Source: Pseudomonas sp. GM80
Lineage (GTDB): Bacteria > Pseudomonadota > Gammaproteobacteria > Pseudomonadales > Pseudomonadaceae
Direction: 5' to 3'
NCBI RefSeq assembly: GCF_000282515.1
Contig: NZ_AKJD01000015.1
Coordinates: forward strand, 1-64,000
DNA: 64,000 nucleotides
This document shows, piece after piece, positions 24,323 to 59,214 of this stretch (within the stretch, counting starts at the first letter, position 1; each line of letters begins with the position of its first letter). The notes beneath the pieces are model-generated. The model saw nothing but the letters and a program-made list of their open reading frames with translations. It was not told where the DNA came from and ran no database searches. A program made the position numbers and the translations under genes.

Positions 24323-26728
24323 TTACGGCAGAGCGTAAGCCATGACGTAGTCGCCACGATCGGTCGACTGACGCGCGCCGCCGGCGGTGATGACGATGTA
24401 CTGTTTGCCGGTTTTCGGCGAAACGTAGGTCATCGGGCCGCCCTGGCTGCCAACCGGCAGACGCGATTTCCAGACTTCTTCACCGTTGCCGCTGTTGAAC
24501 GCGCGCAGGTAGAAGTCCTGAGTGCCGGCGATGAAGATCAAACCACCTTGGGTCGACAGGGTGCCGCCGAGGGTTGGCAGACCGATCTTGATCGGCAAGT
24601 GCATGCGGATGCCCAGTGGACCGGTGTCTTCAACGGTGCCGACTGGAACCTGCCAGGCGACTTTCTGGGTCTTCATGTCGATCGCGGTCAGCGTGCCGAA
24701 CGGCGGCGCCTGGCAAGGAATGCCGGCCACCGACAGGAAGCGGTTCTTGTTCACGGCGTACGGCGTGCCTTTCAGCGGAACGGCGCCCATACCAGTGTTC
24801 AGCGCTTCGCCACCGCCAGCCGCCTGGCCTTTGTTCTGCGACGGGATCATCTGAATCCACAGACCCAGGCGCATGTCGTTGACGAAGATGAAGCCGTGCA
24901 CTGGGTCAGTCGAAATGCTGCCCCAGTTCATGCCGCCCAGCGAACCCGGGAAGCTCAGCGATTTGTCAGTGCCCGGCGCGGTGTACAGGCCGTCGTAGCG
25001 CATGCCTTTGAAGTCGATACGGCAGAGCAACTGATCGTACGGCGTGGCGCCCCACATGTCCGATTCGGTCAGGTGCTGAGCGCCGATTTCTGGCATGCCC
25101 ACCGATTTCGGCTGGGTAGGGGAGTACGGTTCGTTCGGGATGTTCGCCGCTTTGACCGGGACTTCTTTAACGTCGGTCAGCGGTTTGCCGGTGGCACGGT
25201 CGAGCACGTAGATCTGCCCGGCCTTGGTGCCGATGACCACGGCCGGTACGGTTTTGCCGTCCTTGGTGAAGTCGATCAGGCTCGGCTGCATCGGCAGGTC
25301 GAAGTCCCAGAGGTCGTTGTGCACGGTCTGGAACACCCAGCGTTCTGCGCCCGTGGTCGCGTCCAAAGCAAGGATCGAAGCACCGTAGGTGTGATCCAGT
25401 TTGCTGCGTTCGACACCATAGATGTCGGTCGACGAACTGCCCATCGGCAGGAATACCGTGTTGGTCGCCGGGTCATAAGACATCGGCGCCCAGCTGTTCG
25501 GCGTGCTGCGCACGTAGGTGCTGCCGTCGGCCGGAGCCTTTTTATCCTGCGGATTGCCCGGGTCGAACGCCCAGCGCATGGCGCCAGTGATCACGTCGAA
25601 ACCACGAATCACGCCGCCCGGCATGTCTGCTTGCACGTTGTCAGCCACGCGACCGCCAACCACCACGGTGGTGCCAGCCATCAATGGCGCGGAGGACAAC
25701 TGATAGTAGCTGTCCGGCACATCACCCAGACCGGCCTTCAGATCCACTTGGCCGTTGTTGCCGAAACCCTGGCAGAACTCGCCGGTGTCCGCATCGACCG
25801 CGATCAGGCGCGCATCGATGGTGTTGGTCAGCAAACGACGCTGGCAATTGGCAGCCGGCGCAGGTTTGGCTTCGATGATGCTCGAGTTGGACGGCTGAGC
25901 AATGGCGGCGGTGGCGTCGAAATACGCCATGCCACGGCAGCGCTGCCAGACTTTCGACTGTGCGTTGATCGAGTTCTTCCACAGTTCTTTGCCGGTGTCG
26001 GCATCGAGCGCGATCAGGTTGTTGTGCGGGGTGCAGATAAAGACTTTGTTGCCGATTTGCAGCGGGGTCAGTTGGTCTTCGGCGCCGTTGCCATCGCTCT
26101 CGGCGACGTCACCGGTGTGGTAGGTCCACGCGACTTTCAGCTTGTCGACGTTGTTGCGATTGATCTGGTCCAGCGCGGCGAAGCGGCTGCCACCTTCGGT
26201 ATTACCGTAGTGCGCCCAGTCTTTTTGCGCCTTGTCCGGCTCGACCGGAGTCAGGCCCGGGCCGGTGCCGGTTGCGGCAACGGTCGGGTGAGCGACGAAC
26301 ATATTGCCGGCCGCCACAACCACGCCAACCGCCAGCACCGCCGCCACGGCATAAGCGCCGCGGCCCGCGACGCCACCGTTGGCACGCTTGAGCAGCGGAT
26401 AGACCAGCGCCACGACCAGGCCGATCACGCTGAACATGAACAGGCGCGAGAACACCGGCCAGAACACCAGGCCAGCATCGCTCACTGCCCAGATCGCGGT
26501 GCCCACCAGGAACGCGGCGAACAACCACGCACCGGCCGGCTTGAAACGCGCGATCAACAGACCGGCAACGGCCATGACCAGGCCACCCAGCAGGAAGTAC
26601 CACGAACCTCCCAGGCTGACCAACTTCACGCCGCCCGCAGCCAGCGCCAAGCCGAGCAGGGCGATGACGACGCCCAGCCCGACCAGAATGAATTTTGATA
26701 TGCCCGAGAGGCTTTGACTCTGCTTCAC
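24323..26728 (-). CDS. gcd: membrane-bound PQQ-dependent glucose dehydrogenase
   Basis: 801-residue quinoprotein that oxidises glucose to gluconolactone in the periplasm and passes electrons to ubiquinone. Five N-terminal membrane helices (about residues 10-145) precede an eight-bladed propeller with WAHYGNTEGGSRFAALDQIN, NNLIALDADTGKELW, a paired CQRR and NSWAPMSYDP region, and the end PVGSQGGPMTYVSPKTGKQYIVITAGGA. Length is that of the usual Gcd (about 800). The start codon is GTG with GGGAC upstream. An imperfect palindrome lies about 40 bases upstream (26764-26785). The product drives the direct oxidative pathway and acid-mediated phosphate release known in pseudomonads. Confidence 0.96.
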   Translation of the reverse strand: MKQSQSLSGISKFILVGLGVVIALLGLALAAGGVKLVSLGGSWYFLLGGLVMAVAGLLIARFKPAGAWLFAAFLVGTAIWAVSDAGLVFWPVFSRLFMFSVIGLVVALVYPLLKRANGGVAGRGAYAVAAVLAVGVVVAAGNMFVAHPTVAATGTGPGLTPVEPDKAQKDWAHYGNTEGGSRFAALDQINRNNVDKLKVAWTYHTGDVAESDGNGAEDQLTPLQIGNKVFICTPHNNLIALDADTGKELWKNSINAQSKVWQRCRGMAYFDATAAIAQPSNSSIIEAKPAPAANCQRRLLTNTIDARLIAVDADTGEFCQGFGNNGQVDLKAGLGDVPDSYYQLSSAPLMAGTTVVVGGRVADNVQADMPGGVIRGFDVITGAMRWAFDPGNPQDKKAPADGSTYVRSTPNSWAPMSYDPATNTVFLPMGSSSTDIYGVERSKLDHTYGASILALDATTGAERWVFQTVHNDLWDFDLPMQPSLIDFTKDGKTVPAVVIGTKAGQIYVLDRATGKPLTDVKEVPVKAANIPNEPYSPTQPKSVGMPEIGAQHLTESDMWGATPYDQLLCRIDFKGMRYDGLYTAPGTDKSLSFPGSLGGMNWGSISTDPVHGFIFVNDMRLGLWIQMIPSQNKGQAAGGGEALNTGMGAVPLKGTPYAVNKNRFLSVAGIPCQAPPFGTLTAIDMKTQKVAWQVPVGTVEDTGPLGIRMHLPIKIGLPTLGGTLSTQGGLIFIAGTQDFYLRAFNSGNGEEVWKSRLPVGSQGGPMTYVSPKTGKQYIVITAGGARQSTDRGDYVMAYALP

Positions 26729-27100
26729 GTTGAGTGTCCCGTTGAAATGAGGCGCGCATTATATAGTTAGGTAACTACCTAGTTAAATCACAAATTTCAA
26801 CGTGAAGCGTAGTTCGCGCTTTTGACTCGCGCCTGAGGTGGCTCAAATGTTGAAAAGTCTGTCGAAATGCGCACAAAAATCGCTGTTCTGTAAGATTTAT
26901 TGTGATTTTTGACAGATATAGACTGTCGCGCCTTCAGGCTTAAATCATTTGCGCCGGGTTGTAAATGCGACGAATAAGCGCCCAATAGCCCGATACAGAG
27001 AGGTCAGCAGACGCATCGAGCTATATGGATATGCTTTTTTAATCTTGGAATTCGCGGTGTTTTACCGCTCAACTGGCGCCTTTTTGATAGGTGGCTATTT
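26729..27100. other. A/T-rich gap between gcd and solA
   Basis: About 370 bases that hold the divergent promoters of gcd (left) and solA (right). It is clearly A/T-richer than the genes around it. Apart from the palindrome at 26764-26785 and the solA RBS (aggtgg, 27087-27092) I see no gene; short open frames have no RBS and no family resemblance. Confidence 0.55.
26764..26785. promoter_or_regulatory. palindromic operator candidate upstream of gcd
   Basis: TAGGTA (26768-26773), two bases, TACCTA (26776-26781) form a perfect core, flanked by further TA symmetry (TAGT left, AGTTA right). It lies about 40 bases upstream of the gcd start, within the expected promoter, and has the size of a TetR- or MarR-type operator. 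No regulator gene is adjacent, so the binding protein is unknown. Confidence 0.5.
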
Positions 27101-28279
27101 ATGTCCGAGCGATGTGATGTGCTGGTTTTAGGCTTGGGCGCGATGGGCGCTGCCACGGTTTATCAGTTGGCGAAAGCGGGGGTTAACGTCGTCGGTATCG
27201 ATCGCCATCACCCGCCGCATAACCTCGGTTCCAGCCACGGTGATACGCGCATCACCCGACTTTCGGTGGGAGAGGGTGCGCAATATGTGCCGATCGTGCG
27301 CAATTCTCATCGCATCTGGCGTGAGCTGGAGGCATTGTCGGGCGAGTCGCTGTTCGAGCAATCCGGGTTGCTGGTGTTAACGTCGAGCAGCGAGTTCGAT
27401 CCTGAAGATCAGACCGACTTCACCTTGCGCACCATCGGTCTGGCGCAAACCTACGGCATCGAGCACGAAGTCTTGTCCGCCAAACAGATTCGCCAGCGCT
27501 TCCCGCAATTCGCCCACGCGCACGACTCGGCCATCGGTTATTTCGAGCCGGGTGGCGGCTTCGTGCGCCCGGAGCGCTGCATCGATGTGCAGCTCAAACT
27601 CGCCGAGCAACACGGGGCGACGCTGTATAAAGGCGAGACCGTCACCGGCATCACTTCGAACGAGGAGGGTGTCACCGTCACCACCGACCGCCGCACCCTG
27701 TTTGCCAACAAACTGGTGATCAGCGCGGGCAACTGGAACGGCGAATGGCTCGGTGAGCCTTATGAAAATCTGCTGAGTGTCTACCGGCAAAAACTGTTCT
27801 GGTTCGAACTGGAGGAGGACGCCGGACTGGTGGGCCACTCGCCGACGTTCATCCTCACCCACGGCCGTGGTGACGACAACATCAATTACGGATTTCCCGC
27901 CTTATCCGGCGAAGGCAGTATGAAAATCGCCACCGCGCAGTACCACACCGCATCGGCGCCGCAGGCCATCGACCGCACGGTTTCAGCAACCGAAGCGCAG
28001 GACATGTACGAGCACCAGGTACACAACCGCATCGCCGGCGTGACTTCGACAGTCGTCAAATCCGCCGTCTGCGCCTACACCGTGACACCGGATCGCCATT
28101 TCATCATCGACGAACATCCGTCGCTGCAGCACACCCTGTTCGTCTCGGCCTGCTCCGGACATGGCTTCAAACATTCCGCAGCACTCGGTGAGGCGTTCGC
28201 GCAATGGTGCATGCGCGGCTCGACCGACCTGGATCTGTCCTCTTTCTCCCTCAAACGATTCGAAGGAACACTATCGTGA
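27101..28279 (+). CDS. solA: SolA-type N-methyl-L-tryptophan / sarcosine oxidase
   Basis: 392-residue FAD enzyme of the monomeric sarcosine oxidase family. It shows the nucleotide-binding VLVLGLGAMGAATVYQLAKAG at the N-terminus, the family marker GSSHGDTRITRLSVGEG (about 43-59), FEPGGGFVRPERCI and the late CAYTVTPDRHFIIDEHP plus SACSGHGFKHSAALGE, including the Cys that carries covalent FAD in this family. It oxidises N-methyl groups of amino acids. Its stop overlaps the GTG of the binding-protein gene. The partnership suggests import and demethylation of an N-methylated amino acid. Confidence 0.9.
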   Translation: MSERCDVLVLGLGAMGAATVYQLAKAGVNVVGIDRHHPPHNLGSSHGDTRITRLSVGEGAQYVPIVRNSHRIWRELEALSGESLFEQSGLLVLTSSSEFDPEDQTDFTLRTIGLAQTYGIEHEVLSAKQIRQRFPQFAHAHDSAIGYFEPGGGFVRPERCIDVQLKLAEQHGATLYKGETVTGITSNEEGVTVTTDRRTLFANKLVISAGNWNGEWLGEPYENLLSVYRQKLFWFELEEDAGLVGHSPTFILTHGRGDDNINYGFPALSGEGSMKIATAQYHTASAPQAIDRTVSATEAQDMYEHQVHNRIAGVTSTVVKSAVCAYTVTPDRHFIIDEHPSLQHTLFVSACSGHGFKHSAALGEAFAQWCMRGSTDLDLSSFSLKRFEGTLS

Positions 28280-29055
28280 AACGCGTCGCGCTCTCCGTTG
28301 CACTGCTGGTCGCCGCCATGGGCAATGCCTACGCCGAAACCCTGAAAATCGCCGTGGTGCCTGTGCCCCATGCCGAGATTCTGGAGTTCTTGAAGCCTGA
28401 ACTGGCCAAAGACGGGGTGACGCTGGAGGTCAAAGTCTTCTCTGATTACATTCAGCCGGATCGGCAGACCGATGAAGGCTTGCTCGACGCCAACTACTTC
28501 CAAAGCAAGCCATACTACGAGGCCTACAAAAAAGACCGCCCGAGCAGCGATCAAGTGCCTGTCGTCGCCGTACACATCGAACCGTTCGGCGCCTATTCGA
28601 AGAAGATCAAAAACATCAGTGAACTCAAAGATGGCGCGACCATTGCCATTCCCAACGACCCGACCAACTCCGGTCGAGCGCTGCTGCTGATCGCCAAGCA
28701 AGGCCTGATCACACTCAAAGATCCTGACAACATCATGGCTACGCGCCTGGACATCGTCAGCAATCCCAAGCACTTGAAGTTCCAGGAACTGGAAGCGGCC
28801 ATGCTGCCGCGGGTGTTGAATCAGGTTGATTTGGCCCTGATCAACGCCAACTACGCCCTGGAAGCCAAACTGGTGCCGCACAAAGACGCACTGTTCATCG
28901 AAAGCTCGGAATCGCCGTACGCCAATTACCTGTACGTGCGTCGCGACAAGGCCAACGACCCGGCGGTGCAGAAGCTGGGTGCACTGCTCAATTCGCCGCA
29001 GGTGAAGCAGTTCATTCTTGAGCGTTATCACGGTGATGTGGTGCCGGCGTTCTGA
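28276..29055 (+). CDS. metQ: MetQ/NlpA-family substrate-binding protein
   Basis: 259-residue periplasmic protein of the methionine-binding NlpA family: TLKIAVVPVPHAEILEFLKPELAKDG, VKVFSDYIQPDRQTDEGLLDANYFQS, IAIPNDPTNSGRALLLIAKQGLI and the end SPQVKQFILERYHGD. It starts at GTG overlapping the solA stop, with AAGGAA upstream. Unlike classic MetQ there is no lipobox cysteine; the N-terminus ends in NAYAE, a type I signal peptide. No metN or metI gene is adjacent, so it must use another permease or a different amino-acid ligand, such as the solA substrate. Confidence 0.85.
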   Translation: MKRVALSVALLVAAMGNAYAETLKIAVVPVPHAEILEFLKPELAKDGVTLEVKVFSDYIQPDRQTDEGLLDANYFQSKPYYEAYKKDRPSSDQVPVVAVHIEPFGAYSKKIKNISELKDGATIAIPNDPTNSGRALLLIAKQGLITLKDPDNIMATRLDIVSNPKHLKFQELEAAMLPRVLNQVDLALINANYALEAKLVPHKDALFIESSESPYANYLYVRRDKANDPAVQKLGALLNSPQVKQFILERYHGDVVPAF

Positions 29056-29062
29056 TTGACTT

Positions 29063-29098
29063 GGGAGCCGTCAGTAGATCTGACGGTTCTCAGCTCCC
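29063..29098. terminator. stem-loop between convergent metQ-like and bestrophin genes
   Basis: CCGTCAG/CTGACGG around tagat, with outer GGGAGC/GCTCCC pairing. It fills the short gap between the two stops but lacks a T-run, so termination efficiency is uncertain. Confidence 0.55.
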
Positions 29099-30001
29099 TC
29101 AAGCGTTCTCTTCAATCCTGCGCACGTCCCCCAACGAATCACGCTGCATCGACTGCAGGTTTTTCTCGATGGTTTCGCACAGCGCTTCCATCTGAATCTG
29201 ATGCTCGCTGTGGCGAAACGGGCTTTGCAGATCGGTGCCGATGCGCTCGATGGCCAGCAGCATGAAACCGACCACGGTGGAGGCCAGCGGTGTGAACCAG
29301 CCAAGAGACTCCACCAGCCCTACCGGTACGATCAGGCAGAACAGCGAAATAAACAGGCGCGGGAAATACACATAAGGGTAGGGCAGCGGCGTATTGGCAA
29401 TGCGCTCCATGCCGCCCTGGCTGTTGGACAAATCCACCAGTGTCGATTCCAGCCGCGCCAGACGAATGCTGTCCAGACGCCCGGCGTTGTATTCCCGGGC
29501 AAGCAGCGCGGCCGAGCCGGTGAGGATGTCGTTGGCAAAGTTATTGGTGGTGCCACTGCGGGCGAATTCGTCAGCGGGAATGAACGCCCGGACCTCTTCA
29601 GGGCAAGGCTGGCCTTGCAGATGCGCGGCGAGGCAATTGACATAGGCGACGTGGCGGCGCAGCAGGGTCGACTTGACCGGGTTCACCTCACTGCCAGGGT
29701 CATCCAGTAACGTCAGCACCTGCCGGGCGAAGCTGCGCGAATTGTTGATCATCGAGCCCCACAGCGTCCGCGCTTCCCACCAGCGGTTGTACGCGCTGCT
29801 GTTACGAAAACTGATCAGCACGATCAATGCCGAACCCAACAATGTCAGAGGCATCAGCGGCAAATTCAGCTTGGCGTTGAGGAACAGCATGAAGTCCACG
29901 GTGACGGCAATGTCCCAGAGCAACAGCCAGAACAAGGCCCAGCCGACATAGCCCAGGGTCTTGATGATCAAACGGTATTTTTTGACGATGGCAGCTTTCA
30001 A
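29099..30001 (-). CDS. bestrophin-family (UPF0187) ion channel
   Basis: 300-residue membrane protein of the bacterial bestrophin family, which form pentameric anion or cation channels. Typical parts are the N-terminal membrane helices (GYVGWALFWLLLWDIAV), LLGSALIVLISFRNSSAYNRWWEARTLWG (the diagnostic NxAYxRWWEAR element), a second membrane pair with FPRLFISLFCLIVPVGLVESLGWFTPLASTVVGFMLLAIERIG, and the C-terminal IEENLQS. The start is TTG with GAGG seven bases upstream. It converges with the MetQ-like gene. Confidence 0.9.
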   Translation of the reverse strand: MKAAIVKKYRLIIKTLGYVGWALFWLLLWDIAVTVDFMLFLNAKLNLPLMPLTLLGSALIVLISFRNSSAYNRWWEARTLWGSMINNSRSFARQVLTLLDDPGSEVNPVKSTLLRRHVAYVNCLAAHLQGQPCPEEVRAFIPADEFARSGTTNNFANDILTGSAALLAREYNAGRLDSIRLARLESTLVDLSNSQGGMERIANTPLPYPYVYFPRLFISLFCLIVPVGLVESLGWFTPLASTVVGFMLLAIERIGTDLQSPFRHSEHQIQMEALCETIEKNLQSMQRDSLGDVRRIEENA

Positions 30002-30120
30002 ACGGAAACCTCGTGGCGAGCGGGAAGCATTGATGCCTTAGCTCGGACGGCGTTTCCGTGGGAAAGGTTCGCTGATCGCTTTACACAATGTGTCCGAGAC
30101 GCTGAGCGATCTGCGTGACG

Positions 30121-31254
30121 TCAGTCAACCATCACCTCATCCAGCGCCTGCTCAAGCGTACTGACCGTGCGTTCGATATTGTGCAGTTTTTCCAGCCCGA
30201 ACAGCCCGATACGGAAGGTCTGGAAGTCGGCCGGCTCGTCGCATTGCAACGGCACGCCGGCGGCGATCTGTAGACCATGGCTGGCAAATTTCTTGCCGTT
30301 TTTGATATCGGCATCGTCGGTGTAGCTCACCACGACGCCCGGCGCCTGAAAGCCTTCCGCGGCGACGCTTTTGAAGCCTTTGCCGGTCAACAGGATGCGC
30401 ACCCGATCGCCCAGCGCCTGTTGCTCGTCGCGAATCTTGTCGAAACCGTAGGCTTGCGTCTCTTTCATCACCTCGTTGAAGCGTGCAAGGGAATCGCTCG
30501 GCATCGTCGCATGGTAGGCATGTCCGCCTTGTTCATAGGCCTGCATGATCTGCAGCCACTTTTTCAGGTCACAGGCAAAGCTGCTGCTTTGGGTGTGCTC
30601 GATACGCTCCAGCGCTAAAGCACGGAACATCACCAGCGCGCAGCAAGGCGATGCGCTCCAGCCTTTTTGCGGTGCGCTGATCAGCAGGTCGACGGCGCAT
30701 TTGTGCATATCAACCCACAGCGTGCCCGAGGCGATGCAGTCCAGCACGAACAGACCACCCACCGCATGCACGGCGTCGCCGACGGCCCGCAGGTAGTCGT
30801 CGGGCAGGATGATCCCGGATGAGGTTTCAACGTGAGGGGCGAAGACGATTTTCGGCTTTTGCGTCGCGATCGCTGCCAGCACTTCGTCCAGCGGCGGCGG
30901 GGCGTACGCGGCCTGATGACCGCTTTCTACCGGCCGGGCTTTCAGCACCGTGGTGGCCGCCGGGATATTGCCCATCTCGAGGATCTGGCTCCAGCGATAA
31001 CTGAACCAGCCGTTGCGTATAACCAGGCATTGCTGGCCGGTCGCGAACTGGCGCGCCACCGCCTCCATGCCGAAGGTGCCGCTGCCCGGCACCACCGCAA
31101 CCGCCTCGGCGTTGTAGACCTGCTTGAGGGTCTTGGAGATGTTCTTCATCACCGCTTGAAAGGACTGCGACATGTGGTTCAGCGAGCGGTCGGTGTAGAC
31201 CACGGAGTACTCGACCAACCCCTCGGGATCGATACTGGGATAGAGCTTTGACAT
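30121..31254 (-). CDS. class-V PLP aminotransferase (alanine/serine-glyoxylate type)
   Basis: 377-residue PLP enzyme of fold type I, aminotransferase class V. The PLP lysine lies in LLISAPQKGWSASPC; the aspartate binding the pyridine nitrogen is in GLFVLDCIASG; glycine-rich VVPGSGTFGMEAVARQF precedes. Family members interconvert alanine or serine with glyoxylate; some act on phosphonates. Start ATG with AAGGAG. Unusually the conserved region is preceded by a short MSKLYPSIDPEGLVEYS segment. It is alone on its strand between the bestrophin gene and a divergent kinase gene. Confidence 0.85.
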   Translation of the reverse strand: MSKLYPSIDPEGLVEYSVVYTDRSLNHMSQSFQAVMKNISKTLKQVYNAEAVAVVPGSGTFGMEAVARQFATGQQCLVIRNGWFSYRWSQILEMGNIPAATTVLKARPVESGHQAAYAPPPLDEVLAAIATQKPKIVFAPHVETSSGIILPDDYLRAVGDAVHAVGGLFVLDCIASGTLWVDMHKCAVDLLISAPQKGWSASPCCALVMFRALALERIEHTQSSSFACDLKKWLQIMQAYEQGGHAYHATMPSDSLARFNEVMKETQAYGFDKIRDEQQALGDRVRILLTGKGFKSVAAEGFQAPGVVVSYTDDADIKNGKKFASHGLQIAAGVPLQCDEPADFQTFRIGLFGLEKLHNIERTVSTLEQALDEVMVD

Positions 31255-31475
31255 GGCGTAACTCCTTTGGCAGAGATGTCAGTGGGTTCGACCCTGCCTC
31301 AAGCCATGGCAAATGACAAGTTGGCCGGATTGAATGGCGGCTTCGGTCAAGCGGCATTGAAAAGGTCGGGTGAACATCATTGGGACGCAAGTGTAGGCAA
31401 AGGGCAGGGATGAGCTGATGCAATTGCGCAAATGCGGTTAGAGTGCTCGCCATAGTCTTGATCGTTGTGTGAAGA

Positions 31476-32087
31476 ATGAATCCCTCGCTGTTTATTTCTC
31501 TGGATGGCCCCAAAGGCACCGGCAAAACCACACTGTTGGAGGCCGTTACCGCAGCACTGAGAGCGGACAAGCAGAAAGTCATTCGGCTCTGCGAGAGAAA
31601 AAGCGATCCCTTCAGGGCTGAAACCATGGCCCTCGTTAACCAACTCGCCAGAAATCCTTCCGCGGAACTCGAGTGGGCTGTGTGTCAGCGTTTTGCCGAT
31701 AGCCGAAGCTGGATCTCCCGACACGTGCTGCCTGAACAACCGCCGAACAGCATCATCCTGATTGATCGTTGGTATCCGTCGGATGCCGCCTTTCGCCACA
31801 CCGTGCCGTTTGCAGAGATTCTTCAATTGAACATGGAGCGAGCCGTGCGAGTGCCGGATCTGCATGTCGGGGTCGTCACTGCACCGGATATTTCATGGGC
31901 GAGGGCAACAGCACGATCGCGCGGGCTGGGCGGCACGGTGATTCAGAAGCACGCCGAGCATGTTGCGTGTACCGAGATGTTCGAGCAGGCGGTTGCGGAT
32001 CAGGGCTGGGTGTTGTGCCGTAATGAAGGGACAGTCGAAGAGGCGACGATGCAGGTGGTCAGCGAGATTTATAGAGTGCTTCGGTGA
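31476..32087 (+). CDS. thymidylate kinase-like nucleotide kinase
   Basis: 203-residue P-loop kinase. The Walker A DGPKGTGKTT (residues 10-19) and the DRWYPSDAAF box (D97-R98) follow the thymidylate kinase layout, and AELEWAVCQRFADSRSWI occupies the usual substrate helix. Lid arginines occur in ARATARSRGLG. It is not Tmk in the usual chromosomal context, so it may phosphorylate another nucleotide or act in defence; sequence is A/T-richer than the gene to the left. No strong RBS is seen upstream. Confidence 0.75.
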   Translation: MNPSLFISLDGPKGTGKTTLLEAVTAALRADKQKVIRLCERKSDPFRAETMALVNQLARNPSAELEWAVCQRFADSRSWISRHVLPEQPPNSIILIDRWYPSDAAFRHTVPFAEILQLNMERAVRVPDLHVGVVTAPDISWARATARSRGLGGTVIQKHAEHVACTEMFEQAVADQGWVLCRNEGTVEEATMQVVSEIYRVLR

Positions 32088-32420
32088 TTATCGAGGTGCA
32101 AAAGGACATCCATCCGGGCCATTGCCCATCATTTCATTGCTGGGCTTGACTACATTAAGTGATAAGGCTCCGTTTTATTTGGCTGAGCCTGTCCCGCACT
32201 TCGCGGTGTGGTCGTTCTTGTTTATGGTGCTGGTAGTTGCTGTCGAGCGAATTAATATGAATGCCGTCGTCGCAGAGAATGAAGAACTCATAAATAGTCG
32301 CCATAGGAATCGAATCGGGGGAGGGTGAGGCGAAGCCAGTGCTCAGTCACACTGGATGCATGAACAGTTAGTTGCTAGAATCCTGGCAATATTCCATATT
32401 TATTTATGCCAAGGATGATG
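32088..32420. other. gap with a possible small membrane ORF
   Basis: About 330 bases. On the plus strand, in frame with the longer open frame ending at 32328, about 65 residues read as PIISLLGLTTLSDKAPFY... followed by a clear membrane helix (AVWSFLFMVLVVAVERI) and a polar tail. There is no ATG with an RBS at a suitable place, only TTG codons, so it may be a remnant. The rest holds the promoter of the Mrr-type gene (RBS aagga at 32411). Confidence 0.35.
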
Positions 32421-33485
32421 ATGAGCACCGGCTCTCTTCAAATCAATTTAGGTCTTTTTGAACCTACTCTTTTAGCTCTGTACGTTCTTGCAGCCATCTT
32501 GCTCATCGCTCTCTACCGCAAGACCGATGCTCAATGGTGGACGCCGTTTGTGCACGGCATCTTTTTTGCCATCGTGACCATCATCGCCGGCGCCTGCGGC
32601 GTTTCTGACAAGTACACGAATCCGGCTCTCTTCATCACGCTCTGTACCGTCGTGGGCTACTACGTTTTCAGCATCAGTGCCTATGTTTTCAATGTGGTGC
32701 GCAGATCGATGCGCATGAACCGACTCTGGTCTGCGATCCCGAGAGACCAGCGTCGCAGAAAACCGCACTGGCCATGGACGCCTTTCAATGAAGCCTGGTA
32801 CGACACTGCGCACTCAACCCTGGGCGAAATGCTTCAAAACGCTCAGATCACAGAGGGGCTGGCGCTCCTTGAGGAGCTTACCGAAGAGCACCTGATCACG
32901 CTTTCAAGGAAGCGAATCCAGTGTGCCTACAAAGACGAGTACGAGATCCTGCGAGACGGCGATTGGCCAAAGCACGCAAAGTACTTCATCAAGGCAGTCG
33001 CTATTCCAGCGATGGAGGCGCATGGGCTCACTGTGCATCCTCCGCTTAAAGCCATGCTCGAATTGATGAATGACATCGTCCCGGCCACCGCGTCACTCGA
33101 TGACCAAACAACAGAAACTCAGCTTCACGAGCACAGCACCGGCTCTGACTATGAGATGCATGTGGCGCGGATCCTGGAAGAGGCCGACTGGCAGGCGAAG
33201 ATGACACCGGTCACCGGGGATCATGGTGCAGACATCATTGCTATCAAAGGCTCCTTTCAGGCGGCTATCCAGTGCAAGTATTACTCCCAACCTGTTGGTA
33301 ACGGCAGCGTCCAGGAGGCTTACTCTGCAAAAGGCTTTTACCGCTGTGATGTGGGCGCCGTAGTCTCTAACGCGTCCTTCACGAAAGCCGCTCGAACAGC
33401 CGCTACCAGCCTGAATGTGCCACTTCTTCACCATGACGACCTCGTTGAAACCCTTGAGAAGCTGCGAATGCACGCGTTGACCTGA
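32421..33485 (+). CDS. membrane-anchored Mrr-type restriction endonuclease
   Basis: 354-residue protein. Two or three N-terminal membrane segments (about 16-32, 44-60 and 70-92) are followed by a basic stretch and a C-terminal Mrr_cat nuclease domain: GSDYEMHVARILEEADW (E245), TGDHGADIIAI (D271), AAIQCKYY (Q284-K286) and PVGNGSVQEA. This is the PD-(D/E)XK type core, D-Q-x-K. Start chosen at 32421, five bases after AAGGA; ATGs at 32406, 32415 and 32418 are close by. No methylase gene accompanies it. A membrane Mrr nuclease of this kind could cut modified or incoming phage DNA at the envelope (inference). Confidence 0.8.
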   Translation: MSTGSLQINLGLFEPTLLALYVLAAILLIALYRKTDAQWWTPFVHGIFFAIVTIIAGACGVSDKYTNPALFITLCTVVGYYVFSISAYVFNVVRRSMRMNRLWSAIPRDQRRRKPHWPWTPFNEAWYDTAHSTLGEMLQNAQITEGLALLEELTEEHLITLSRKRIQCAYKDEYEILRDGDWPKHAKYFIKAVAIPAMEAHGLTVHPPLKAMLELMNDIVPATASLDDQTTETQLHEHSTGSDYEMHVARILEEADWQAKMTPVTGDHGADIIAIKGSFQAAIQCKYYSQPVGNGSVQEAYSAKGFYRCDVGAVVSNASFTKAARTAATSLNVPLLHHDDLVETLEKLRMHALT

Positions 33486-33833
33486 GCTCGTCTCGGGCGC
33501 GTCAAGATTGCATAGGCGCGAGGTGTTTCTTGGTGAGTTGGCGCAGGTGGCTTTGGGTTGCGCTCAAAGCTTAGTTTTCCGACAGGACTGGAGGGGTAAC
33601 GCGAGGGGCTGATTTTCCACTATACGGGGTTTTGTGCACAAACCGACCGGGGGTTAGTGGATTGGACACTGAAAGCTAGATGCCGTCAGCCATAGGACAT
33701 GATTTAACATAATATACATTACACGTAACAAGATATTACAGATCTAGCCCAGTCACACACTGGAATTGAATCTCCAGCATTACCTCCAAGCACCTTTAAC
33801 CTCGCCGATTCCCATCCTTGAAATCTCCGCCTC
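33486..33833. other. A/T-rich gene-poor gap
   Basis: About 350 bases after the Mrr gene and before the end of the DUF985 gene. The middle (about 33700-33745) is strongly A/T-rich with ATAATATACATTACACGTAACA-like sequence. I see no reading frame with an RBS, no tRNA and no terminator with a T-run. It might be the scar of an insertion, but no target duplication is visible. Confidence 0.45.
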
Positions 33834-34349
33834 TCAATCATCCTCACGCGTCAGCATTTCTATCAGCACTCGATGCTGTGGAAACCGCGTCGACAGTTTC
33901 CGCCGATCACCAATCTCCATGTCCGCAAAATCGAATCCAGGTGAAACCGCTTCACTGATCAATCCAAATCCGTTCGAACCGCTCAGCAAGCGTGAAGCTT
34001 TCCAGATCCCGCCTGGTACGTGTAATTGCAATTGCTGACCGCTCAAAACTTCGCTACCCATCACCGGGGTTTGCAGTGAACCGTCAGCATGAATGAGGCT
34101 GTACTCAATGGCGTCGCCCAAATGGAAATAATGCAGAATGTCGGATTGGTTGAAATGGAACTGGCCCACCGGCGAATCTTCGGTCAGCAGATAGTAAATC
34201 GAGGTCATCAGGTATCGAGGACCACCCGTGGTTTCGAGCATTTCTCTACGATCAGCCTGATAGGTTCTGCGAAAATAGCCGCCTTCGACGTGAGGCTCCA
34301 GATCCAGCGCTTTGATGACGTCCTGTGCAGGGTTTGGGCATGAAATCAT
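33834..34349 (-). CDS. DUF985 cupin family protein
   Basis: 171-residue single-domain cupin of the DUF985 (Cupin_5) family. Characteristic elements are EPHVEGGYFRRTYQAD at the N-terminus, TSIYYLLTEDSPVGQFHFNQSDILHYFHLGD (metal-site histidines), GGIWKASRLLSG, GLISEAVSPGFDFADMEIG. Function unassigned, probably sugar- or nucleotide-related. The RBS GGAGAAGG is strong. A palindrome (34383-34416) lies 34-67 bases upstream of the start. Confidence 0.9.
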   Translation of the reverse strand: MISCPNPAQDVIKALDLEPHVEGGYFRRTYQADRREMLETTGGPRYLMTSIYYLLTEDSPVGQFHFNQSDILHYFHLGDAIEYSLIHADGSLQTPVMGSEVLSGQQLQLHVPGGIWKASRLLSGSNGFGLISEAVSPGFDFADMEIGDRRKLSTRFPQHRVLIEMLTREDD

Positions 34350-34382
34350 GACCTTCTCCGTAAGAATTGGCGGTTTTTTACT

Positions 34383-34416
34383 TTAGCTCTACTAAACGGT
34401 CATTTAGTAGAGCTAA
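34383..34416. promoter_or_regulatory. perfect 14-bp palindrome upstream of the DUF985 gene
   Basis: TTAGCTCTACTAAA (34383-34396) and TTTAGTAGAGCTAA (34403-34416) are perfect arms around cggtca. Its inner part (ACTAAA N6 TTTAGT) has the size and symmetry of a TetR-family operator. It sits upstream of the DUF985 gene and 39 bases after the end of the MFS gene on the same strand. No T-run follows on either strand, which argues against a simple terminator. Confidence 0.55.
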
Positions 34417-34454
34417 GTATTGACTCTAGTCGATGCCCTCCTCCAAAGGCACCT

Positions 34455-35924
34455 TCAGCGCGCCCTGATGCTATGCCGGGCGGTAATCACCGAACCCACG
34501 TGAACGCCTGAAATGTCCCCGCTCATCACTTTTCCTGCACGGGCCATTTCCCAGGCATCGCGGGCCTCGTCCAGGTCACGGTTGAGTGTTTCCGGTGTCT
34601 TGAACGTGGTGTACAGAGTGATCAACGTGAGCAGGCTCAGATAGCAAGCGATCGGCAGCCATGCATTGATCCCCGCGCTGGCATCGCCGTCATGGCTCGC
34701 CACTACCAGAGCGATGATGCCAGCCCCGATCATCGGCGCAATGCCCCCGGCGATGACCGCGGACACTTCCCGAGCGATCGATACCCCCATATAACGGTGA
34801 CGCGAGCCAAAGAGTTCAGGCATCAACGCAGCCTGGGTGCCGAACATGCCCCAGGTCCCGATGCCCAGCGCGATGGAGATCGCAATGATGCTCGCCACGA
34901 CATGGCCAAGACTCAGCACCCACCACACCGGAAATGCCAGGGCCAGTTGTAGCACTGCGAAAGCCCGGTAGACCACGACACGACCAAACCGGTCGCTGAG
35001 CTTTCCGGCGATTGGCACGGTCATCGCGCCGAGGCAGGCTGCACAGATCAGGGTCAAGACGCCCACCGGCCCTTGCAAACCCACGACGCCGACGATGTAG
35101 CTCACCGCCAAAGCCTGGTATATCGATGACCCACCGTTCTCTCCAAGGCGCAGCCCGATACCGAGCAACAACGTCGGTCTGGAGTGTTCCATCGCACTTT
35201 TCAATGGGTTGTCGCAGACACGCTTGAGCGCCTTGAGACGCACGAACGTCGGTGATTCCTGAAGCGACATGCGCATGTACAAGGCCAATGCCACGATGAC
35301 CACGCTGCTGAAAAACGGCACGCGCCAAAGCCCGCTCGCGATGACGTTGTCATTGCCGCTGACCACCAGGAAATACACCAGCGCCGCGAGGATGGTGCCC
35401 AACTGAATACCGAGGAATGGCAACGCCGCGTAGAAACCGCGCCGCCCCTCGGGAGCGTATTCGGTCATCATCACTGCCGCACCGGCCTGCTCCGCCCCGG
35501 CACCCAGCCCCTGCAAAAGGCGCAGGACGACTAACAATACTGGTGCCAGATAACCGATCTGATGGAAGGTAGGCAGTGCGCCAATCAGGGTGCTGGAAAT
35601 ACCCATCAACAGCACCGTCGACGTCAGCACGAACTTGCGCCCTACCCGATCACCCAGCATGCCGAACAGTACGCCGCCCAAGGGGCGTACCGCAAAGCCC
35701 AGAAAGTAGGTGCCGAAACTGGCGATCAGGCTCATGGCACGGCTCTGCTCGGGGAAGAACAGCGGCCCGAAGATCAGCGCCGAGGCCAAGGTATAAAGTG
35801 CGAAGTCGTAGTATTCAAGAGCGCTGCCCAAAGAGCAGGCCCAGGCGGCGCGATGCAGGTCTTTCTTTTGTTCGCGCGCATCGGGGATCAAAGCAACGTC
35901 GGATGGTGAGTGATCATGAGCCAT
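34455..35924 (-). CDS. MHS-family MFS transporter
   Basis: 489-residue inner-membrane transporter with about twelve helices. It is of the metabolite:H+ symporter family (KgtP/ShiA-like): SLGSALEYYDFALYT in helix 1, LGGVLFGMLGDRVGRKFVL in the helix 2-3 loop, and RLLQGLGAGAEQAGAA. Family substrates include shikimate, alpha-ketoglutarate and other organic acids. Being in the operon with a shikimate/quinate dehydrogenase gene makes shikimate, quinate or a related hydroaromatic acid the likely cargo. RBS GGAGG. Confidence 0.92.
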   Translation of the reverse strand: MAHDHSPSDVALIPDAREQKKDLHRAAWACSLGSALEYYDFALYTLASALIFGPLFFPEQSRAMSLIASFGTYFLGFAVRPLGGVLFGMLGDRVGRKFVLTSTVLLMGISSTLIGALPTFHQIGYLAPVLLVVLRLLQGLGAGAEQAGAAVMMTEYAPEGRRGFYAALPFLGIQLGTILAALVYFLVVSGNDNVIASGLWRVPFFSSVVIVALALYMRMSLQESPTFVRLKALKRVCDNPLKSAMEHSRPTLLLGIGLRLGENGGSSIYQALAVSYIVGVVGLQGPVGVLTLICAACLGAMTVPIAGKLSDRFGRVVVYRAFAVLQLALAFPVWWVLSLGHVVASIIAISIALGIGTWGMFGTQAALMPELFGSRHRYMGVSIAREVSAVIAGGIAPMIGAGIIALVVASHDGDASAGINAWLPIACYLSLLTLITLYTTFKTPETLNRDLDEARDAWEMARAGKVMSGDISGVHVGSVITARHSIRAR

Positions 35925-35980
35925 CGTGTTACCTCCAGGTGCCTTTCTGGCATCTTGTTATTGACCGGTAGTGGGATTGC

Positions 35981-36796
35981 TTACAATTTCAGGCGCTGTA
36001 TTTCCTTGAGCATGGCCTGCTCCATGATGTCGATGGGCGCGTCTCTGCCGGTGTACAGCTCGATCTGCCGACAAGCCTGATGCACCAACATGCGAGTGCC
36101 GGCGACGGTGCGGCAACCCAGCGTTTTGGCTTGCAACAGCAGCGCGGTCTGCACCGGCATGAAAGCCACATCCATCACAATCAAGTGGCTGGCCAGAACG
36201 CCGTCCAGTGGATTGCTCTCGGGCTGTTTGAAACCTACGGAGGTGGCGTTGATGACGATGTCGAACGACGTCGCCGCAAATGCTCCGACGTTGCCGCCCC
36301 ACCGGGCGCCGAGATCCTCGGCCAGGGCGGCACCACGTTCGATGCTGCGGTTGAATACCGTGACTTCCGCCGCTGCTTGCAGGCAACCGTAAACCACCGC
36401 GCGAGCTGCTCCGCCGGCACCGATCACAGCGATACGCTTACCACTCAGCTCGGTGACTTCTTGCAGGGCGCGCACGGCTCCCAGGTAGTCGGTGTTGTAA
36501 CCGGTCAACACGCCCTCGACGTTGTTGATGGTGTTGACCGCACCAATCACTTGGGCCGATTCGTCGATCTTGTCCAGACAAGACATGACTGCAGTTTTGT
36601 ACGGCATCGAAACGTTCATGCCGCGCACGCCCAGCGCGCGAATGGCCGCCACGGCCGCAACCGGATCTTCAACGCCGAAACAGACAAAGGTGTAGTCCAG
36701 GCCCAATGCGGCGTAAGCGGCGTTGTGGATTTTTGCCGAAAGCGAAAACGGCGACCCCATGATGGATCCACACAAGGTTGGCAGGGATTGAGGCAT
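35981..36796 (-). CDS. shikimate/quinate dehydrogenase family enzyme
   Basis: 271-residue NAD(P)-dependent enzyme of the AroE family. GSIMGSPFSLSAKIHNAA is a modified form of the substrate site; GMNVSMPYKTAVM carries the catalytic Lys; INNVEGVLTGYNTDYLG and VIGAGGAARAVVYG are the substrate Asp and dinucleotide loop; FNRS follows. Most AroE proteins begin the N-terminal motif GxPxxHSxSPxxHN; here it is G-S-P-F-S-L-S-A-K-I-H-N. Start taken at ATG with AAGGA, trimming 38 residues. Context (MFS, SDR, LysR) argues for a catabolic rather than biosynthetic role. Confidence 0.88.
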   Translation of the reverse strand: MPQSLPTLCGSIMGSPFSLSAKIHNAAYAALGLDYTFVCFGVEDPVAAVAAIRALGVRGMNVSMPYKTAVMSCLDKIDESAQVIGAVNTINNVEGVLTGYNTDYLGAVRALQEVTELSGKRIAVIGAGGAARAVVYGCLQAAAEVTVFNRSIERGAALAEDLGARWGGNVGAFAATSFDIVINATSVGFKQPESNPLDGVLASHLIVMDVAFMPVQTALLLQAKTLGCRTVAGTRMLVHQACRQIELYTGRDAPIDIMEQAMLKEIQRLKL

Positions 36797-36816
36797 GTTG
36801 GTGTCCTTCACGAGAG

Positions 36817-37581
36817 TTAGACGACGCTGGTCAAGCCACCATCGACGAAAAGGGTCTGGCCGTTGACGAAGTCGGAGGCTGACGAAGCGAGAAACACCGC
36901 CGCACCGCACAGTTCCTCGACATTGCCCCAGCGTCCGGCAGGCGTTCGTTGCATCAGCCAGTCGGAAAAAGCCGAGTCATCGACCAGCGCCTGGTTCAGT
37001 TCGGTTCGGAAATAGCCAGGGGCCAAGGCATTGATCTGCAGGCCATGCCTGGCCCAGTCGGCGCACATGCCACGAGTGAGCATGCGCACGGCCCCTTTGC
37101 TGGCGGCATACGGTGCGATAGAGGCGCGAGCCAGTTCGCTTTGTACCGAGCCGATGTTGATGATCTTGCCGCGCCGGCGAGCAATCATGTGTCGGGCCAC
37201 GGCCTTGGACACGTTGAAGACGCCATCGAGATTGGTGCTCATGAGTCGATGCCAGTCTTGCGCACTCACGTCTTCAAGCGCCTGACGATGTTGCAAACCG
37301 GCGTTGTTGATCAGAATGTCGATCGGGCCTGAGCGGTGTTCCAGCGCATCGATCGCGGTTGCAACGGCCTGGTGGTCGGTCACGTCGAACAATGAATATT
37401 CCGCGTCCAGCCCCTCATCCCGTAACAACGCGCAGGCACTTTGTGCGCGTTGGGCATCGCGACCATTAATCACCACCTGAGCGCCCGCCTGTGCCAACCC
37501 GCGCGCCAGGGCCAGTCCAATACCTCGCACCGAGCCGGTGATCAGCGCCCGACGCTGATTCAGGCGAAAGTTGTCGATCAT
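36817..37581 (-). CDS. SDR oxidoreductase, gluconate 5-dehydrogenase-like
   Basis: 254-residue classical short-chain dehydrogenase. Cofactor loop TGSVRGIGLALARG (16-29), NNAG at the catalytic centre, Ser in INIGSVQSE, and YAASKGAV (Y-x-x-x-K). The C-terminal AVFLASSASDFVNGQTLFVDGG is typical of the gluconate 5-dehydrogenase/3-oxoacyl reductase subfamily. First gene of a minus-strand operon continued by the shikimate/quinate dehydrogenase and the MFS transporter, and divergent from the LysR gene. RBS GGGGAGG. Confidence 0.92.
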   Translation of the reverse strand: MIDNFRLNQRRALITGSVRGIGLALARGLAQAGAQVVINGRDAQRAQSACALLRDEGLDAEYSLFDVTDHQAVATAIDALEHRSGPIDILINNAGLQHRQALEDVSAQDWHRLMSTNLDGVFNVSKAVARHMIARRRGKIINIGSVQSELARASIAPYAASKGAVRMLTRGMCADWARHGLQINALAPGYFRTELNQALVDDSAFSDWLMQRTPAGRWGNVEELCGAAVFLASSASDFVNGQTLFVDGGLTSVV

Positions 37582-37663
37582 CTGTGCCTCCCCTTCTTGG
37601 TTTTATGCATAGGGCAACGACCCCACTTTCGACCGCTTCCGCCCCGGCGTGCCAATCGTTTAT

Positions 37664-37694
37664 GGTGATGCCGTAATCACCGATCGTGATCACC
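37664..37694. promoter_or_regulatory. LysR-type operator with three related half sites
   Basis: GGTGAT (37664-37669), six bases, ATCACC (37676-37681), then a further ATCACC at 37689-37694 within GTGATCAC. It lies in the 141-base gap between the divergent SDR and LysR genes, which is the classic place for a LysR recognition site plus a downstream activation site (spacing 13). Confidence 0.6.
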
Positions 37695-37722
37695 AGAAAC
37701 ACCGTACGGATCAGGAGGATCA

Positions 37723-38604
37723 ATGGAACTCAAGCATTTGCGGGCATTTGCAGCCTTGGCTGAGGAACTGCACTTTGGTCGTGCGGCAGCGCGTCTGCAC
37801 ATTGTCCAGCCGGCGTTGAGTGCGCAGATACGCGCACTGGAAGACGATGTAGGCGCGCTGTTGTTCGAACGTGATCGTCACGGCGTCGAGTTGACCGAAG
37901 AAGGTGCGCTGTTTCTCCCCGAGGCCTTGGCAACCCTGCGTCAGGCCGCTCGGGCCCGTGAAGTGTTGCAACAGGCTGCAGCCGGAGAAGCCGGGGTGCT
38001 GCGTCTGGCATTTGTGTCGTCGACGCTGGCGCACTTGTTGCCAACGCTTGTGCGTACGCTGGAGCAGCGCTACCCGCGCATCGAGCTGGAACTCAAGGAC
38101 ATGCCCTCGCTGCCGCAGACCCGGGCTTTGCTGGACAACGCCCTGGATTTCGGTCTGGTGCGCTTACCCTTGAATGTGCCTGGCGTACACACCCGTTTGC
38201 TCTTCGAGGAGTCGCTGGTGGTGGCGCTGCCGCAAGACCACGCACTTTGCAGCCAGGCTCGTATAAAACCTCAGGATCTGGCCGGGTCTGCGGTATTGGT
38301 GCTCGCGCGCAAATTCGCGCCCGGTTTATACGACCAAATGCTGGCGGGTTTTCATCGCCGCAAAGTGACGTTGACCATCGCCCGGGAAATGGGTGAGTTC
38401 ACTACACAATTGGCGTTGGTCGCTGCGGGGCTGGGCGTCGGTATTTTGCCAGGTGGCGCCGCTTCAGCGCTGCCAGTCGGCGTGGTGACCCGGCCACTGG
38501 CGCTGCCCATGAGCGGCGCGGGCATCGGTGTGGCCTGGCTCGGACTGGAAAACCCTCGTAAACGGGCATTGATGACAGTGCTGGACGAACTCTATCCAGC
38601 GTAA
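37723..38604 (+). CDS. LysR-family transcriptional regulator
   Basis: 293-residue regulator. N-terminal winged helix: MELKHLRAFAALAEELHFGRAAARLHIVQPALSAQIRALEDDVGALLFER, then a periplasmic-binding-like effector domain (about 90-290). The HFGRAA-xxL-xxQPxLSxQI pattern places it in the CatR/BenM-like group of LTTRs that respond to aromatic or hydroaromatic acids. RBS AGGAGG. It is divergent from the SDR / dehydrogenase / MFS operon and likely its activator. Confidence 0.93.
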   Translation: MELKHLRAFAALAEELHFGRAAARLHIVQPALSAQIRALEDDVGALLFERDRHGVELTEEGALFLPEALATLRQAARAREVLQQAAAGEAGVLRLAFVSSTLAHLLPTLVRTLEQRYPRIELELKDMPSLPQTRALLDNALDFGLVRLPLNVPGVHTRLLFEESLVVALPQDHALCSQARIKPQDLAGSAVLVLARKFAPGLYDQMLAGFHRRKVTLTIAREMGEFTTQLALVAAGLGVGILPGGAASALPVGVVTRPLALPMSGAGIGVAWLGLENPRKRALMTVLDELYPA

Positions 38605-57324: not shown

Positions 57325-57831
57325 CTACTTCTCGGATAAAAATCGTTTAATGATCATTGCCACTGCCTCCACCGGAGACGTCAGGGCTGTGTCTATATCA
57401 AACGGAGTGTTATCCCATGGCTCATATTCATGATCCAATACAGACTGCCAGGTTGGTGGTGTCAGGCCAGGAATATCAATCTTCCTGGTTTCTACCCGTC
57501 GTTGGTGTTCATATTTATCAGAGCAAACCACCTGGATATTCACTAGTGGAGCACCAGAGCGAGCAGCGATCTCGCTCCACGCCTTTCGGCTTTCAACTAC
57601 AGGGTTAACACAGTCGACTATGACTGTACTACCAAAGCGAAGATTGCTCAGAGCAAGCTCATTAGCGACCATATAACCGCTCCGCCCCACGTCTTGTGCC
57701 AGAGCACCGGAATTTCGGATAGCCTGCTCAATCGTATCAATCCGCAGATACACCGCACTTGTTCTGGTGGCAAGGTCACTTGCTATAGTCGTTTTTCCAG
57801 TACCGGGAAGGCCGCTGAAGACAATAAGCAT
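57325..57831 (-). CDS. P-loop kinase of the AAA_33/zeta-toxin-like family
   Basis: 168-residue protein with Walker A SGLPGTGKTT (6-15) at the N-terminus, a DRID-like acidic position (YLRIDTIEQAIR), DCVNPVVESRKAW and a late TPPTWQ segment. Such kinases phosphorylate small molecules, tRNA precursors or sugar nucleotides. Start at ATG after GAAGGA; the longer frame from 57897 has no RBS. The M24-type gene starts divergently 109 bases away. Confidence 0.75.
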   Translation of the reverse strand: MLIVFSGLPGTGKTTIASDLATRTSAVYLRIDTIEQAIRNSGALAQDVGRSGYMVANELALSNLRFGSTVIVDCVNPVVESRKAWSEIAARSGAPLVNIQVVCSDKYEHQRRVETRKIDIPGLTPPTWQSVLDHEYEPWDNTPFDIDTALTSPVEAVAMIIKRFLSEK

Positions 57832-57940
57832 TCTATGTCCTTCGATTAGAGAGTTGGCCCAGTCTAGGCCAAAAAGCTGACGTTCAATTTTGCTCAAGCG
57901 CCTGCTCCATCATTCAAGGACGACGATAGAGGCTTCACTC

Positions 57941-58474
57941 ATGCCTGCACCACGCAATCTACTGATACAGACCGCAGCGAAATCGGTCCTGTCGCAGCTC
58001 GTTGACCCTATAAAACCAGATTTGACCGAGTCTTCAATCGCGAAAATTGCAGCTGATCTGCTGAGGCAATCAGGGTTTCCTGATACCTGGTATTACGATT
58101 GTCCGGCATTCGTATTACTCGGATCGCGCAGTTCGATTTCAGTGTCAGGTCGAGACTATCAACCAAGCAGCGAAAAAGTGGGCCTGAATAATCTTGTGAC
58201 CGTCGACCTCAGCCCCCGCTCAGGAAATGATTGGGGCGATTGCGCACGCTCATTCTATGTCGAGAACGGTGTGTGTCGATCGGTGCCACTCGGTGATGAA
58301 TTCACCCGAGGGTATGAGGCAGAGCGCAGTCTGCATGCCCTCATGCTTTCATCAGCCAGTGCGGCATCATCCGGGCTGCCGCGTGAAGCCTGCTTAAGCG
58401 CATGGACCGGCCAATCGAAGCATTTATCAGCAATAAATCGTTTGTCCCTGACTCACTCATCACTCGGGTCATAA
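57941..58474 (+). pseudogene. truncated M24-peptidase-like gene
   Basis: 177-residue frame. The first 140 residues match the start of M24 (creatinase/aminopeptidase) proteins: YYDCPAFVLLGSRSSISVSGRDYQPS and NLVTVDLSPRSGNDWGDCARSFYVENG, which holds two metal aspartates. The usual HGIGH and later Glu residues are absent and the tail (LPREACLSAWTGQSK) looks unrelated, running into the MarR gene's end. Probably a deletion remnant. The RBS is gagg. Confidence 0.6.
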
Positions 58475-58923
58475 CTGTTCACATTGGGCACTTGCAAGTG
58501 CAGGCGCCCAAGCAAGTCAACCAACGTGTCGACCTCGGCAGGGGTCAATCCGCTGAGCAGACGCGACTCTCGCTCAAGTGCAACTTTGAGCACGCGGTCA
58601 TGCAGTTCTTTACCGCTGGCCGTCAATCGTACGGTGTAACGCCGCGCGTCCTTGGGATCAAGTTGGCTGGTGATCCGCCCCGCTGCTTCCAGCGTTTGCA
58701 ATGAACGACTGACAGCGCTCTTGTCGAGGCCGATGGCCTGGCAGATTCGATTGGCGGTGATGTCGGATTCAACGGCCAGCATTGAAAGCATTCGCCATTC
58801 AACCACGCCGATTCCGAAGTGTTTGCGATAGCACTGGGAAGCCCCGGTGGCGAGTTTGTTCGCCAGGAACGTCACCAGGCCAGGTACATAACGCGACAGG
58901 TTCAGTTGTGTATCGGTAGCCAT
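58453..58923 (-). CDS. MarR-family transcriptional regulator
   Basis: 156-residue winged-helix regulator. WRMLSMLAVESDITANRICQAIGLDKSAVSRSLQTLEAAGRITSQLDPKDARRYTVRLTASG spans the DNA-binding domain. Start ATG at 58923; the frame continues 23 codons upstream across the dyad at 58956-58975. Divergent from the reductase/Rieske oxygenase operon and so probably its aromatic-acid-responsive repressor. Confidence 0.9.
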   Translation of the reverse strand: MATDTQLNLSRYVPGLVTFLANKLATGASQCYRKHFGIGVVEWRMLSMLAVESDITANRICQAIGLDKSAVSRSLQTLEAAGRITSQLDPKDARRYTVRLTASGKELHDRVLKVALERESRLLSGLTPAEVDTLVDLLGRLHLQVPNVNSYDPSDE

Positions 58924-58955
58924 CGAGAAAACACCATAGATCGAAGATTTGTAAT

Positions 58956-58975
58956 TTGGTTGACACCGCAACCAA
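58956..58975. promoter_or_regulatory. MarR operator overlapping a TTGACA box
   Basis: TTGGTTG (58956-58962), six bases, CAACCAA (58969-58975), a perfect seven-base dyad. It includes TTGACA (58960-58965), a -35 box reading towards the oxygenase genes, and lies 33 bases upstream of the MarR start. Typical of MarR self-regulation. Confidence 0.65.
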
Positions 58976-59214
58976 TTTATCTGAGGATTCACTCAGCCAA
59001 GCATTGCGGTCAATGCGCCGCATGATACGCCGTAGCACAACCTCAAAAAAATAATTACAGGTCTTGCTTATGAATGCTTCCCAACCGTGCCCTTCCGTGG
59101 CGCCGATGATTTCCTACCGCCTCTACTTCTTCGCGCCCGGCTGATTCGTCACTCGCTCGCCCCCCTTTTTGCCATTCGTTTTTCAGCAGCCACTTCAATG
59201 TGGAGGGAGAAGTC

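Follow-up and report, generated by a model that had tools for sequence, protein, structure and literature searches.

A candidate defence nuclease of the Mrr type with a predicted membrane anchor, inserted beside the chromosomal dif site of Pseudomonas sp. GM80

Mrr of Escherichia coli has a PD-QxK active site in an Mrr_cat domain that is joined to a winged helix, and in the model given in PMC12707154 the protein exists as inactive tetramers, which methylated DNA or a pressure shock converts into active dimers. The same publication describes Mrr-dependent SOS induction upon high pressure; the DNA damage was inferred in vivo, and by that account in vitro activity is still undescribed. We analysed a 64,000-nucleotide stretch of Pseudomonas sp. 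GM80 (contig NZ_AKJD01000015.1, positions 1 to 64,000, hereafter the window), which encodes a protein that, like the type IV enzyme Mrr of E. coli K-12, has a C-terminal Mrr_cat domain with PD-QxK and no methylase of its own. Where E. coli Mrr has its N-terminal winged helix, however, the window protein has three membrane helices by prediction, followed by a helical linker; no Pfam model, that of a winged helix included, reached its cut-off in residues 1-239.

Two systems catalogued in PADLOC also share the nuclease domain. The candidate system PDC-S02 has a C-terminal Mrr-like nuclease, and all 40 sequences of our alignment, the window protein among them, matched one of its models at E 1e-5, but the window protein aligns to no more than positions 182-306 of one 334-position profile and 195-318 of another with 346, leaving the N-terminal half unmatched. 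ZorD of type I Zorya shares the Mrr-like nuclease domain as well (46.9 bits), but only positions 922-1064 of its 1071-position profile are matched, without the helicase part, and none of the 54 open reading frames (ORFs) of the window matched another Zorya model. Membership in PDC-S02 was rejected because its profile is matched partially, at the nuclease domain, and membership in ZorD because both the helicase part and the Zorya partner genes are lacking.

The nuclease gene occupies 32421..33485 on the plus strand and encodes 354 amino acids. The ATG at 32421, preceded by AAGG at a six-base spacing, is the better start, although translation might also begin at the in-frame ATG at 32406; with its intact frame and plausible ribosome-binding site, the ORF stands as the first-pass annotation had drawn it. 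Mrr_cat (PF04471) was matched at residues 240-344 (33138..33452, plus strand) with E 1.2e-18 and 67.8 bits, where the cut-off is 21, and no other gene of the 6.79 Mb assembly matched Mrr_cat. Weaker related Pfam models overlap the same residues, including NA-iREase1 (39.7 bits), which is named for inactive nucleases. Mrr_cat was matched in all 40 aligned sequences, the window protein included, and the catalytic residues E245, D271, Q284 and K286, as well as C285 between the last two, are invariant in them, so that K286, which had been picked out from the sequence beforehand, is the correct active-site residue; with the domain above its curated cut-off and E, D and QxK all kept, the protein belongs to the Mrr_cat group of PD-(D/E)XK nucleases. 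Y174, D267, G269, N294, Q298, T321 and A324 are also identical in 40/40. A search of solved structures gave a best E of 0.067, and a scan of genome contigs with the single protein as the query gave no match.

The surroundings of the gene had been described as A/T-richer, and they are (54.4% GC in the ORF against 59.0% in the window), but low GC is no distinguishing mark of the nuclease gene because the adjoining cupin gene has 51.4%. Together with the gene-poor flanks and a glutamate at residue 175, where 37 of the 40 aligned sequences have glycine, the low GC might point to a decaying passenger that has lost its activity. This seems quite unlikely to us, as all catalytic residues are kept, the frame is intact and the ribosome-binding site plausible.

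A hydropathy scan detected three hydrophobic segments, at residues 12-30, 43-61 and 69-87. Similarly, an AlphaFold2 model calculated with 40 sequences (mean pLDDT 83.2, pTM 0.56) placed three helices near the N-terminus (15-34, 38-60 and 68-105), a further, long one at residues 124-156 and the nuclease fold from residue 241 onward. In blocks of ten residues, pLDDT was 88-98 from residue 241 on and 42-88 in the helix region, where the model is weaker. From hydropathy and model together, three membrane helices are predicted at residues 12-105 (32454..32735, plus strand), and a helical linker containing Y174-E175...W182...F189 extends over residues 124-219 (32790..33077, plus strand). Residues 92-123 are positively charged with 9 K/R. 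Because a positively charged flank of a membrane helix stays on the cytoplasmic side (the positive-inside rule), this sequence feature suggests that the nuclease domain faces the cytoplasm. Among PDB folds, AF1548 (1y88), MspJI and Cdn1 were the nearest to the model and the sole matches at E of 0.001 or below; archaeal Hjc ranked lower. A nuclease tethered to the membrane by two or three helices had been proposed, and domain search, model and conservation agree with it, with three helices predicted; this architecture is well supported and, with the insertion described below, makes up the solid part of the case.

Relatives were found with profile searches and analysed in the best 80 of 293 genome loci and in 62 viral-contig loci. 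The match starts at or before residue 163 in 54 of these 80 genome loci and in 14 of the 62 viral-contig loci, extending into the segment that precedes Mrr_cat, and the remaining matches cover little beyond the nuclease domain. The architecture of the family consists of hydrophobic helices (in most members), a conserved Y-G...W...F segment and Mrr_cat. In the segment, which precedes Mrr_cat, Y174 is present in 40/40 aligned sequences, and L161, W182 and F189 in 38/40 each (F189 is replaced by Y in 2). The window protein has both family features, the N-terminal helices and, apart from the deviating E175, the conserved segment. One to three hydrophobic segments lie ahead of the Y-G...W...F segment in 56 of 72 distinct segment-bearing sequences (window included), a rough share that was counted from first in-frame start codons and includes some near-identical sequences, with Microvirga and Methylobacterium over-represented. 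Since the other 16 have no hydrophobic segment on a simple scale, the membrane anchor is not universal in the family. The Mrr kind itself is known, and the N-terminal architecture of the window protein is covered by no Pfam model. In the titles and abstract openings of open-access papers that were searched, no title dealt with a transmembrane-Mrr_cat architecture or with an Mrr gene in a dif module. Another group of membrane Mrr-like proteins occurs in the genus (L019, L021, L022 and L028); these two-helix proteins resemble the window protein in having a hydrophobic N-terminus and an Mrr-like domain but, by eye, differ from it in a mid-protein position of the nuclease, a C-terminus with cysteines and the absence of Y-G...W...F.

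The nuclease gene lies at the replication terminus, next to dif, where the copies of the chromosome are parted after replication. The 28-base dif site at 33702..33729, which reads GTTACGTGTAA TGTATA TTATGTTAAAT on the minus strand, is the single match in the assembly within 3 mismatches and is separated from the end of the nuclease gene by 216 bp; its XerD half faces the nuclease gene and its XerC half the cupin gene. The spacer and the XerD half are the same as those of the chromosomal dif of Acinetobacter baumannii given in PMC10132070. The cumulative GC skew has a flat top at about 25-44 kb of the window and then falls, as at a terminus. The core pattern of dif (at most 1 mismatch) was detected in 277 of 298 genomes of the genus, once in each except for G197, which has two.

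To the left of the nuclease gene lies a gene for a thymidylate-kinase-like P-loop protein (31476..32087, plus strand), a flank conserved in the genus and outside the insert; to the right, beyond dif, lies a Cupin_5 (DUF985) gene (33834..34349, minus strand). In genomes G253 and G162, kinase, dif and cupin follow one another in this order with no intervening gene, and in G252 the same slot is occupied by a carbonic anhydrase gene. Homology to G011 stops at 32094 and resumes at about 33670, which sets the approximate inserted segment at 32095..33670, between the conserved end of the kinase gene and the dif flank. Because the empty site in G253 and G162 lacks the nuclease gene, we consider it well supported that a single gene, on a segment of about 1.6 kb, was inserted into a variable slot between kinase and dif, and horizontal acquisition is the best reading of its origin. 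A search for a target-site duplication was negative; the longest word common to the insert ends is 7 bases and the repeats look like chance. A short hydrophobic frame is present within the insert at 32130-32328, upstream of the nuclease gene, and is perhaps a remnant or a leader. In G216 and G011, which have the nearest relatives of the kinase gene, the terminus is rearranged at this place, and a block from an MFS to a LysR gene (34455-38604 in the window) is inverted beside the kinase gene (L066, L250).

The kinase had been taken as a defence-island neighbour of the nuclease, a claim that does not hold. Close relatives of the kinase gene are present in 157 of 298 genomes of the genus at E 1e-40 (source genome included), and among the same-contig pairs listed the gene always reads towards dif, with dif on its 3' side (76/76); the distance to dif in these pairs is at most 200 bp in 8, 1-5 kb in 11 (window included) and greater in 57. 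The nuclease gene or a relative was found in 3 of 398 genomes, and since the kinase is common without it, the kinase was rejected as its partner. This neighbour is thus part of the chromosome terminus, not of a defence island. At 1e-5, PADLOC models matched none of the ten genes that flank the nuclease gene (24326-37581). The common kinase and these PADLOC-negative flanks led us to reject the defence-island reading of the chromosomal copy. In a scan of the 54 ORFs of the window at 1e-8, two PADLOC families were matched by the nuclease protein itself; two more, mad3 and HTH_VI, were matched by one ORF each, outside the ten flanking genes. None of the 54 matched a PADLOC methyltransferase model at this threshold, in agreement with the earlier statement that the nuclease has no methylase partner.

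The closeness to dif raises the question of whether the position itself is functional, such that a membrane nuclease aids chromosome resolution or clears DNA trapped in the septum. A spacing of 216 bp and a predicted membrane anchor would suit such a role, but the dif core is present in 277/298 genomes and the gene or a relative in 3/398. In addition, no strong dif site of the proteobacterial pattern (XerC at least 6/8 and XerD at least 10/11) was found in the flanks of 142 relatives from genomes and viral contigs, and therefore proximity to dif is no rule of the family. We regard a role in chromosome resolution or septum clearing as very improbable.

The distribution of the gene is sparse. 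At E 1e-20 it or a relative was detected in 3 of 398 genomes of the genus, source genome included (2 of the 397 others), and the best other copy in that draw is 36% identical across residues 49-348. A relative in Pseudomonas alkylphenolica, outside the draw, has 43% identity across residues 155-353 and two hydrophobic segments. A draw across the order gave 4 of 293 genomes at E 1e-6, again with the source genome. Plasmid matches were found in 97 records at E 1e-8, none reaching 80% coverage; in the best 30 of the 97, query coverage was 29-51%, and in 8 matching phage records it was 26-33%. Many of the matches among the 97 plasmid records and the 62 viral-contig loci are the nuclease domain alone. 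The relatives thus form a scattered family across plasmids, viral contigs and distant genomes.

Neighbours of the relatives were compared in 52 family loci, and 42 groups recurred in three or more loci. Most of these groups come from related hosts (Microvirga, Methylobacterium) or are mutual antisense frames; the rest comprise integrases (6 loci), transposase-like genes (3 loci, by eye) and, in four viral contigs, tail genes. Only integrase- or transposase-like neighbours are common to unrelated hosts, and no group resembling a functional partner was seen among the 42. The tyrosine-integrase group, identified for one member via solved structures and joined by BLASTP for the others, is found no further than about 4 kb from the family gene in 6 of the 52 loci (L092, L096, L099, L104, L105 and L128), which fits an island-borne transfer of that gene. 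Scans of 118 of the 171 ORFs in 44 loci with PADLOC, PHROGs and Pfam gave raw counts with no enrichment measure; each matched family had one to three members in the 25 families listed out of 164 for PADLOC, out of 115 for PHROGs and out of 96 for Pfam. Some relatives, unlike the window copy, have defence genes as neighbours: the PADLOC matches listed, at 1e-10, are among others to models of type I and IIG restriction, retron reverse transcriptases, a type II methylase and PD-Lambda-5, and they are single or double, mostly one member per family as raw counts.

In four viral contigs (L169, L170, L172 and L182) the family gene follows tail genes on the same strand, namely for a lytic tail protein, a baseplate hub (twice) and a tape measure. 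These positions, like those of plasmid copies beside toxin-antitoxin genes, agree with a role in conflicts among mobile elements. One possibility is that the gene is selfish cargo, a nuclease that serves mobile elements against one another in superinfection exclusion or plasmid competition and has no settled chromosomal role. The four copies behind tail genes and five Acinetobacter plasmid copies in an Xer module near toxin-antitoxin genes speak for it, but no phage or plasmid genes were seen by eye beside the chromosomal copy, whose frame is intact, and we consider selfish cargo possible, though on the unlikely side.

A defence role is plausible from sequence and distribution because the family is sporadic and present on plasmids and viral contigs. 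In our estimate the chances are about even that the gene encodes a membrane-tethered, methylase-free nuclease that sits in a terminus insertion and acts against entering or foreign-modified DNA. The proposal of a candidate defence gene thus keeps its first argument, a membrane Mrr nuclease without a methylase, and loses its second, the defence island. If the nuclease acts in this manner, it may be held inactive by its assembly, as proposed for E. coli Mrr, and incoming or modified DNA would release or trigger the tethered enzyme, which would cut DNA that enters the cell or bears a foreign modification; the cleavage would restrict the invader or stop the infected cell. The membrane anchor might serve to keep the nuclease close to where foreign DNA comes in, or to reduce the harm done to the host's own nucleoid. 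A stand-alone, membrane-fixed Mrr nuclease would then be a simple restriction device with no methylase or ATPase partner, and the Y-G...W...F segment would provide a handle on how the nuclease is kept harmless. A stress-activated nuclease that damages DNA with no specific anti-phage function, on the pattern of E. coli Mrr and its SOS induction after high pressure (PMC12707154), is unlikely, since a gene that is rare and also carried by plasmids and viral contigs looks more like a conflict gene than a stress gene.

Finally, we compared the window copy with relatives in Xer modules. In five Acinetobacter plasmids, the relative is flanked by two pdif sites in opposite orientation at 4626-4653 and 5751-5778 of the loci, giving a single-gene unit resembling a dif module (L086:4626-5778 of Acinetobacter pittii plasmid pAR3676_1, and likewise L231-L234). 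Of these modules, four have exactly the same sequence. They adjoin RelE/ParE toxin-antitoxin genes, and the encoded relative has 290 aa without a hydrophobic segment on a simple scale. A dif module encoding a VRR-NUC protein has already been published, according to PMC9455709. The window nuclease, in contrast, has a single dif and hence forms no module; no second dif-like site was found within 31000-35000 at the threshold used, and the single dif led us to reject the idea that the window still holds an Xer element. The Xer link between the Acinetobacter modules and the window copy is a lead only, as it consists of two cases, one of them a near-identical set. That the family is passed on as single-gene Xer cassettes, with the window copy having entered dif through XerC/D and lost its outer site, is doubtful. 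If true, dif would serve stand-alone defence genes as a docking place. The dif adjacency and the Acinetobacter module raise the possibility that Xer sites spread nuclease genes besides resistance and toxin-antitoxin genes.

Other genes were noticed near dif or with an unusual composition. In G002, another genome of the genus, three long adjoining ORFs, which by eye resemble a recombinase trio, start 85 bp from dif (L079:10158-15202). At 57325-58992 of the window, three ORFs, one of them for an AAA_33 P-loop protein, are among the six window ORFs with the lowest GC3, and the regulator-like ORF at 58453-58992 resembles one that G016 carries next to its cupin gene and dif (L049).
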